NCBI GenBank assembly: GCA_945903265.1
Contig: CAMDNQ010000027.1
Coordinates: forward strand, 1 to 38,529
Direction of reading: 5' to 3'
Source of the DNA: Candidatus Sulfopaludibacter sp. SbA3
GTDB taxonomy: Bacteria; Acidobacteriota; Vicinamibacteria; Vicinamibacterales; UBA2999
DNA length: 38,529 bases
Under the pieces are notes generated by a model. The model did no database searches and was not told the origin of the DNA. It saw only the letters and a program-made list of their open reading frames with translations. Positions 30,067-31,550 of this stretch are shown piece after piece. The translations under genes were made by a program, and so were the position numbers. Every line of letters begins with the position of its first letter. Positions within the stretch are counted from its first letter, which is position 1.

Positions 30067-30140
30067 GGCGCCGTCGCCAAGTGGTAAGGCAGAGGTCTGC
30101 AAAACCTCCATCTCCGGTTCAAATCCGGACGGCGCCTCCA
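30067..30140 (+). tRNA. tRNA-Cys (GCA)
   Basis: A 74-base cloverleaf with encoded CCA. The acceptor stem GGCGCCG pairs with CGGCGCC, the anticodon stem GAGGT/ACCTC encloses CTGCAAA with anticodon GCA at 30099-30101, and the T loop is TTCAAAT. Its 3' half is the attachment site of the adjoining integrated element and is duplicated at 31479-31523, yet the gene itself is intact. Confidence 0.97.
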
Positions 30141-30168
30141 TTCTTTCCTCAACAAATCGACTGATCGG
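30097..30168 (+). repeat. attL: attachment repeat inside tRNA-Cys
   Basis: From the anticodon loop (CTGCAAAACC) through the CCA to base 30141 the sequence is identical to 31479-31523. Similarity continues with four mismatches to about 30168, beyond the tRNA end. Confidence 0.85.
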
Positions 30169-30199
30169 CATCGCGTCGCGGGGGCCGTTGACCGCCCAT

Positions 30200-30222
30200 T
30201 GTCCCCATTTTGTCCCCGTCGC
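30200..30222 (+). repeat. TGTCCCC paired repeat, copy 1
   Basis: TGTCCCCATTTTGTCCCCG lies within the last integrase codons, about 60 bases from the tRNA. It is nearly identical to 31339-31362 near the other end of the element. Possible arm-type integrase sites, or the matching 3' end of a second, lost integrase copy. Confidence 0.5.
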
Positions 30223-30443
30223 CTTCGCGGCGAGCTTTCGTACGGCCTCGCGCAGGTCGCCATCACTCACGATGTTGTAGCGGTCGAAGACGGATCGGGT
30301 CTTGTGACCGGTGAGCCGCATCGCCACGCTCTCGGACACGCCGGCCCGCACGAGATTGCGCACGGCGGTGCGTCGCAGGTCGTGCGGGATGCGGCCAGGA
30401 CAGCCGGCGGCGCGGCAGGCCTGCGTCCACGCGACCTTGAACG

Positions 30444-31046
30444 TCAGAATCGGGTGTGGAAACTTCTCGCCCCCTCGTGCATGGGCGACCAGCCGGAAGA
30501 AGACCCACGGGACGATGAGACTGCGCGTGCGCGCGAGAGCGTCGGCTTGCCGGCGCTGCTCCTCCAGGAGCTCTCGGAGTTCTGGTGTGAGCGGGAACAC
30601 CCTGCCTTCACCGTTCTTCGTCGTATGGGCATCCAGCCGCACCTCGCCGGCCTCCAGGTCGACGTTGCGCCACTCGAGCCGCAGGACTTCACTGGGGATA
30701 GGGCCGTCTGGACTGGGGGAATCTCAATGACTGCACCGTTCGGCGCCGTGATTCGTTGTGTCCGAACGGGCTCACCCGGAGCTGACGTCACCAGCTCTCG
30801 TAACACTGGTGATTTCGATTCCGTCAGTTGTTCAAGCGCCTCGCCAAAGAGATCACCGAATGCCCGATCGTACTCTGGCAGCGGAAACAGAAAATCCGGG
30901 TCATCCTGAGGATCCCCGGGTCGCTCCATCGCGAACCGATAGGGCGCGATAGTGCTTGTGAATGTTGATAGAAAATAGAGTCGGCCACCCGGCCAACGAA
31001 CTGCGGAGCGCCGTGCGCCGATCTGCGCCTCGTCGACGTCAACCAT
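30444..31046 (-). CDS. Hypothetical frame fused out of frame to the integrase remnant
   Basis: From about 31046 to 30700 the frame encodes an acidic, protein-like segment (FLFPLPEYDRAFGDLFGEAL, TAPNGAVIEIPPVQ) that I do not recognise and that does not resemble an integrase arm-binding or core-binding domain. From about 30700 to its stop it is merely the integrase region read in the wrong frame. I read it as the 5' part of an element gene joined to the integrase by a deletion. Whether anything is expressed is unknown. Confidence 0.35.
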   Translation of the reverse strand: MVDVDEAQIGARRSAVRWPGGRLYFLSTFTSTIAPYRFAMERPGDPQDDPDFLFPLPEYDRAFGDLFGEALEQLTESKSPVLRELVTSAPGEPVRTQRITAPNGAVIEIPPVQTALSPVKSCGSSGATSTWRPARCGWMPIRRRTVKAGCSRSHQNSESSWRSSAGKPTLSRARAVSSSRGSSSGWSPMHEGARSFHTRF

Positions 31047-31478
31047 TGTGTCGTGGGTCTACATTATGGCACGCAGATCGTGGCGCTAAGCCGCGTGGTG
31101 TCCACCCGACTCCGATCGACGCGGTCGCGGTGACGCTTGGACAAATTCCGCCTGACGACTGGCGTGACGACCTTAGCTCTGGGGAAGGGTAGGCTTCGTC
31201 ATCCGGCCTTCCTCCGCCAGCCCGGCCCCAGACTGTTCGCGGGCAGGTCGACGACGAATTTCCTACTGCCGGCCGCTCCCTGGAGAGATCGGCACGGTGA
31301 AGTGTCTACTGCGACGGCGAATCGGCGTGCGATCTGTCTGTCCCCAAAATTGTCCCCGTCGCGAGCAAATTAGGGACAATTGTGGCCAACGCCAGCCAAC
31401 TCGTGCGAACGACAGAAGACTTTGCGGTGCAAGAATTTACGAGTCTTTCTTTGATTTTCGCCGAGTGATTTTCTCAGG
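31047..31478. other. Non-coding remainder of the integrated element
   Basis: No supported gene: the small plus-strand frames here show no domain, no ribosome site and mixed codon use. The stretch contains the second TGTCCCC repeat pair (31339-31362) and, from about 31365, DNA poorer in GC than the surroundings, consistent with foreign origin. Confidence 0.5.
31339..31362 (+). repeat. TGTCCCC paired repeat, copy 2
   Basis: TGTCCCCAAAATTGTCCCCG, about 117 bases before the distal attachment repeat, mirrors copy 1 at 30200-30222 in the same orientation, and is followed by an inverted GGGACA (31373-31378). Confidence 0.5.
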
Positions 31479-31550
31479 CTGCAAAACCTCCATCTCCGGT
31501 TCAAATCCGGACGGCGCCTCCATCCTTTCCTCAATAAATCAACTCATCGG
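31479..31550 (+). repeat. attR: duplicate of the tRNA-Cys 3' half
   Basis: The first 45 bases are identical to 30097-30141 and the next 27 have four mismatches. The 5' half of the tRNA is absent, so this is not a functional tRNA gene but the distal attachment site of the element. Confidence 0.85.

Follow-up and report, generated by a model that had tools for sequence, protein, structure and literature searches.

The stretch of DNA analyzed here (the window, 38,529 nucleotides) carries tRNA-Gly and tRNA-Cys genes in tandem, as called by ARAGORN in agreement with Rfam (Table 1). A second copy of the 44 3′-terminal bases of tRNA-Cys, which begin in the anticodon loop and end with the CCA, lies at 31479–31522, so that an intact tRNA gene is accompanied by a displaced 3′ fragment in the same orientation and on its 3′ side. 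Both belong to a direct repeat of 76 bp (93% identity), the first 45 bases of which are identical (30097–30141 and 31479–31523), whereas the remaining 31 contain five mismatches, four of them within the first 27. A preliminary description of this DNA had reported the 45-base repeat of tRNA-Cys at 31479–31523 and a further 27 bases with four mismatches, both of which can be read directly from the sequence; its account of the recurring tRNA half needs adjustment only at the end, since the half stops at 31522 and position 31523 lies one base beyond the CCA. When a 30-mer of the repeat was searched with up to three mismatches in the 3.52-Mb genome (3,523,819 bases in 45 contigs, 98.86% complete), it was found at these two places and at no third one, and the repeat is therefore not a product of chance. 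The G+C content of the element is 62.0%, compared with 66.0% for the window.

Table 1. Features of the tRNA-Cys locus, in window coordinates.
Feature	Position	Strand	Basis or property	Remark
tRNA-Gly(gcc)	29935..30009	+	ARAGORN, Rfam	Neighbor; control tRNA
tRNA-Cys(gca)	30067..30140	+	ARAGORN, Rfam	Putatively restored on the attL side (left end); proposed insertion point in the anticodon loop
76-bp attachment repeat, left copy	30097..30172	+	Direct-repeat comparison	
Tyrosine integrase, C-terminal part	30097..30699	-	Open through the core	
Left arm-type pair, TTGTCCCC..TTGTCCCC	30199..30217	+	Period 11	
ORF of 110 codons	30714..31046	-	Out of frame with the integrase remnant	Probable deletion junction at about 30700–30717
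Right arm-type pair, TGTCCCC..TGTCCCC	31339..31357	+	Period 12	
Third right-arm site, inverted, GGGACAATT	31373..31381	-		
Possible integrase end in a circular form: 13 codons, PEKITRRKSKKDS, plus stop	31437..31478	-		Counterpart in G013: PEEVTRRKSKKDS plus stop
76-bp attachment repeat, right copy	31479..31554	+		Contains the displaced tRNA-Cys 3′ half (attR side)

The integrase remnant and its relatives

Inside the element, the minus strand encodes part of a tyrosine integrase that faces tRNA-Cys, as had been noted before, and its frame continues open across both tRNA genes to a stop at 29908. The match to PF00589 spans positions 59–168 of the GTG-started ORF and positions 39–168 in a six-frame search. 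Homology to full-length integrases starts at a residue I near position 30699; where this match begins, the full-length protein of a same-family relative (G031) reads GWRI.SEVL and the window reads DGPI. Because DGPI takes the place of GWRI just before the homology, Arg I and the N-terminal domains are gone, which, together with the partial PF00589 match, agrees with the truncation proposed in the preliminary description. What survives is a catalytic-domain remnant without Arg I, in which the K, HxxR, H, and Y motif residues of a tyrosine integrase are retained. The surviving frame has neither a stop nor a frameshift, which argues for decay by deletion rather than slow erosion. The sole other ORF of the element (110 codons) has just two weak matches among 192 genomes and no match in Pfam or PHROG, so that loss of the integration and transfer genes is apparent from the truncated integrase and from this ORF alike.

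Of the 193 genomes of the class, 47 contain relatives of the integrase (E-values up to 1e-20), with full-length proteins reaching 67% identity; G030 and G031 have full-length relatives, 64–67% identical, at the same tRNA-Cys. The closest other integrase in the own genome is 48% identical and lies beside tRNA-Met. A protein scan of IMG/VR gave five relatives with 46–67% identity, and a search of the same resource for a free form, using the core-plus-right-arm pattern, gave no matches. Named phages and plasmids yielded 242 and 187 records, every one below 60% identity, and a search of solved structures returned one XerC-like chain. Among 69 distinct loci of the integrase group, seven integrases run into a tRNA gene (two of these with the tRNA in the opposite orientation, one being an odd ARAGORN call) and 23 stop 0–125 bp before one; at a further 13 loci a tRNA follows after 126–4000 bp, and the examined DNA of the other 26 contains none. 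Other targets of the group include tRNA-Leu, tRNA-Ser, and tRNA-Arg, and a primase-like or terminase-like gene is found in relatives at the same tRNA.

Arm-type repeats at the attachment ends

TGTCCCC pairs with a spacing of 11–12 bp are found at both ends of the element, the left pair (TTGTCCCC, copies 11 bp apart) lying 58 bp beyond the CCA. These pairs resemble integrase arm sites and would presumably be bound by the integrase; at the level of sequence, arm-type sites are thus present on either side of the core. For comparison, the 283-bp attP of ICEMlSymR7A has five arm-type sites, according to excerpts of PMC11963761.

Exact tandem 8-mers with a period of 10–13, located 40–90 nt past the CCA, were found at 10 of 37 tRNA-Cys loci, compared with 0–1 of 35–37 loci in 13 other intervals (two of which overlap the 40–90 nt interval), in a set chosen for carrying tRNA-Cys, halves, or integrases rather than drawn at random. 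At the right ends, such repeats peak 80–130 nt from the half, where they occur in 13 of 28 cases; the peak has shoulders between 60 and 110, and elsewhere beyond 150 nt the count is 0–1. The 13 right ends are not independent, since five carry one common TGGGAACA-type sequence, and they do not include those of the window genome (G000) and G013, in which the right pair is a 7-mer. Other islands have different repeat sequences in similar places. One further group of right ends (L030, L039, L043, L044, and L048), from several genomes, combines the TGGGAACA-type repeat with conserved sequence immediately ahead of the core.

When nine genomes were compared with 200 shuffles each, the 9-mers common to both ends exceeded the shuffle maximum in four (G000, G011, G026 as inverted copies, and G031) and equaled it in G013; those of G006, G030, G033, and G038 were not above the shuffles.

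tRNA-Cys as an insertion site in relatives

A tRNA-Cys query gave matches in 47 of 59 genomes (58 relatives and the window genome). Displaced 3′ halves, defined as matches starting at query positions 26–31 and ending at 70–74 with 91–100% identity, are present in 17 of the 58 relatives and in the window genome (22 copies), and no tRNA 5′ half is readable in the sequence before any displaced core. G057 was left out of this count; its apparent split tRNA-Cys reflects a run of N (a scaffold gap) and not an intron. For tRNA-Gly, the one tRNA used as a control, the same definition gave no displaced half in any of the 58 relatives (59 genomes in all); every hit was a complete copy, a piece at a contig edge, or a weaker match of short length. 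The contrast of 17 of 58 with 0 of 58 upholds the earlier suggestion that tRNA-Cys is an integration hotspot, and the pattern found differs from one in which the half would be present in all relatives without any integrase. A literature search on tRNA-Cys islands in Acidobacteria turned up nothing.

In nine genomes, including that of the window, tRNA-Cys and a half lie on one contig, always in the same orientation and with the half on the 3′ side, separated by 1338 (window), 1303, 1898, 4161, 9375, 11160, 11504, 12925, and 14654 bp.

In eight tRNA-Cys islands (L081, L082, L090, L047, L080, L083, L089, and L038), the integrase lies 0.86–3.3 kb from the tRNA, which leaves a cargo slot by the left end, and four of the eight contain recognizable defence-like genes. 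These four are the loci of G012 (L081; a retron type VI-like HTH protein with a reverse transcriptase), G024 (L082; a D12 methylase and a PDDEXK nuclease), G151 (L090; a TIR-effector match), and G031 (L047; a DUF4238 protein). The slot proteins scanned in G015, G020, and G030 had no family match, and G129 had no clear ORF. A 12.9-kb tRNA-Cys island in G026 (L032) encodes all four Wadjet proteins (JetABCD), and one of 4.2 kb in G006 (L037) encodes a TIR protein. In G107 (L084), about 1.9 kb separates tRNA-Cys from the first displaced core; this stretch has no integrase, which is located beyond that core, and its 314-aa ORF belongs to no known family.

Flanking DNA and the genus-level relative

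The preliminary description had proposed that sister loci be compared and that an empty site lacking 30141–31523 be sought. Displaced tRNA-Cys halves were found in relatives; an exact empty site was not found when the right-flank genes were searched in 59 genomes each and six relative loci were read, since the right flank (ORF102/RNase D) is not adjacent to tRNA-Cys in those six loci. Window positions 31579–33432 encode ORF102, a SHOCT protein, and RNase D, which occur together in G017; ORF102 and RNase D also occur in G022. As these genes sit away from tRNA-Cys in both, the right flank is rearranged relative to the G017 and G022 genera.

In G013, a relative at genus level, both ends match those of the element, with 84–91% DNA identity, and different cargo lies between them, also without a whole integrase. 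Of 192 genomes, G013 is the only one in which the right arm recurs (84% over 140 bp). In G013 (L031), the left-end sequence is present twice, 109 bp being identical, and flanks 1.9 kb of DNA that includes a glyoxalase-family gene; this duplicated left end is a tandem remnant.

Origin of the element

We consider it very probable that the 1.38-kb stretch is an integrative element that was reduced by deletion to a CIME-like remnant. An element of this kind (a phage satellite, a prophage, or an IME) would have inserted through its own tyrosine integrase into the anticodon loop of tRNA-Cys, giving the gene a new 3′ half and displacing the old one to 31479. One or more later deletions would have taken the N-terminus of the integrase and all cargo, and would have fused the 110-codon ORF to the integrase, so that the C-terminus of the latter and both attachment sites, each with arm repeats, were left. 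This reading is favored because the 45-bp repeat is in island configuration and unique in the genome, because the integrase remnant faces the tRNA, and because integrases of the group end in or within 125 bp of a tRNA at 30 of 69 loci, with 13 more within 4 kb. We infer the order of events; the repeat, the truncation, the two-ended arm repeats, and the recurrence at the tRNA are seen in the sequence. Counting against it, the search gave no empty site that has the two flanks together, and four of nine genomes were not above the shuffles. As the source is a MAG, the arrangement may also be caused by an assembly error. The earlier claim of an integrated element is sustained by the tRNA with its displaced half, by the integrase facing the tRNA, and by arm-type repeats that recur in G013. 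Its wording “only a scar” understates that both attachment ends still carry arm repeats.

Taken alone, the repeat would also fit a segmental duplication that copied the 3′ half of the tRNA with no integration involved. We reject this explanation, which is extremely improbable given the breakpoint in the anticodon loop, the island-like orientation and side, the integrase remnant, the arm repeats, and the halves in 17 of 58 relatives. A more open matter is whether attP lay within the integrase gene, for which phage Mx8 is a precedent in excerpts of PMC6070905 and PMC4383910. Integration would then swap the integrase C-terminus for codons antisense to the tRNA, and excision would restore a basic tail. 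No stop separates the integrase from the core, and the frame in a circular form would end in ..EVLQ-PEKITRRKSKKDS here and in ..EVLQ-PEEVTRRKSKKDS in G013. The six differences within this 42-nt tail are distributed 2, 0, and 4 by codon position, compared with 8, 8, and 9 over the 108 nt after the stop, a pattern that is suggestive of coding and comes from two sequences. Moreover, on an IMG/VR viral contig (L103), a seemingly whole integrase frame of 390 aa runs through the antisense strand of tRNA-Pro. On the other hand, the left part of the window element and that of G013 differ by 7, 4, and 9, without a third-position bias, and several other half copies have a conserved tail-like TGP..SLSC plus stop; in G011, stops separate the integrase from the core, which places the conservation in those copies at the level of DNA. 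The antisense frame of the tRNA is open in nearly every locus regardless, and the 23 integrases that stop short of the tRNA also speak against this arrangement. Altogether, we regard an attP within the integrase gene as possible but somewhat improbable.

The element could alternatively be a small, non-autonomous cassette that lacks an integrase, retains intact attL and attR, and depends for its movement on integrases that other tRNA-Cys islands supply in trans. The ends conserved with G013 around wholly different interiors would fit such a cassette, as would the duplicated left end of G013, the several short tRNA-Cys elements that lack a whole integrase (1.34 kb in G000, 1.30 kb in G011, and 1.90 kb in G013), and the stretch in G107. 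Against this, the own genome has no intact cognate integrase, the right arm recurs in a single other genome, and the integrase fragments inside are compatible with simple decay; we therefore think a cassette unlikely. Equally doubtful is the wider proposal that tRNA-Cys of these Acidobacteriota would host a population of integrase-less cassettes of <2 kb, sustained by trans-acting integrases of neighboring islands. Each island would have its own pair of arm repeats, spaced by one helical turn, for recognition, and the integrases of the subset described here would have attP inside their own gene. If true, such cassettes would escape finders whose criteria include an integrase and a length of 2 kb or more.

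Returning to a remnant formed by deletion, the element would be unable to move itself, and a related integrase from elsewhere could in principle act on it. It is probably immobile at present because its own genome has no integrase closer than the 48% identical one.

The locus is a clear but ordinary case of a known process. To the earlier reading, the present analysis adds the arm repeats, the ends common to G013, the controls, and the possible placement of attP within the integrase gene. It documents a hotspot of insertion in a soil lineage that is poorly represented in culture, one that in relatives hosts islands with defence-like genes. Arm repeats that occur in pairs, at a set distance from the tRNA, are a signature that exposes islands even without an integrase.

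Comparison with known systems

Like the islands found by Islander, as described in excerpts of PMC4383910, the element combines a tRNA gene with a displaced 3′ half in the same orientation and on the 3′ side, an apparent crossover in the anticodon loop, and sequence of the integrase group inside. It differs in that the integrase is truncated and in its size, which at <2 kb is below the Islander length filter. In phage Mx8, the int frame crosses the attachment core and its 3′ end is changed on integration (PMC6070905, in part). The integrase frame of the window likewise spans the core, in a gene that is truncated and with a circular form that is reconstructed, so that the likeness is drawn from the arrangement.

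CIMEs are defined, in the relevant part of PMC5704250, by loss of the integration genes and retention of attL and attR. Judged by its sequence, the remnant fits this definition save for ancestry (descent from an ICE or IME) and mobility: integration and transfer genes are lost, both att ends appear to be present, and tandem neighbors occur in relatives, although the interior here has no recognized cargo. The islands at ssrA of Dehalococcoides depend on a serine recombinase, whereas a tyrosine integrase is involved here; as outlined in excerpts of PMC3146451, they share with the tRNA-Cys islands the tandem arrangement at one RNA gene, some of the islands being without any integrase.
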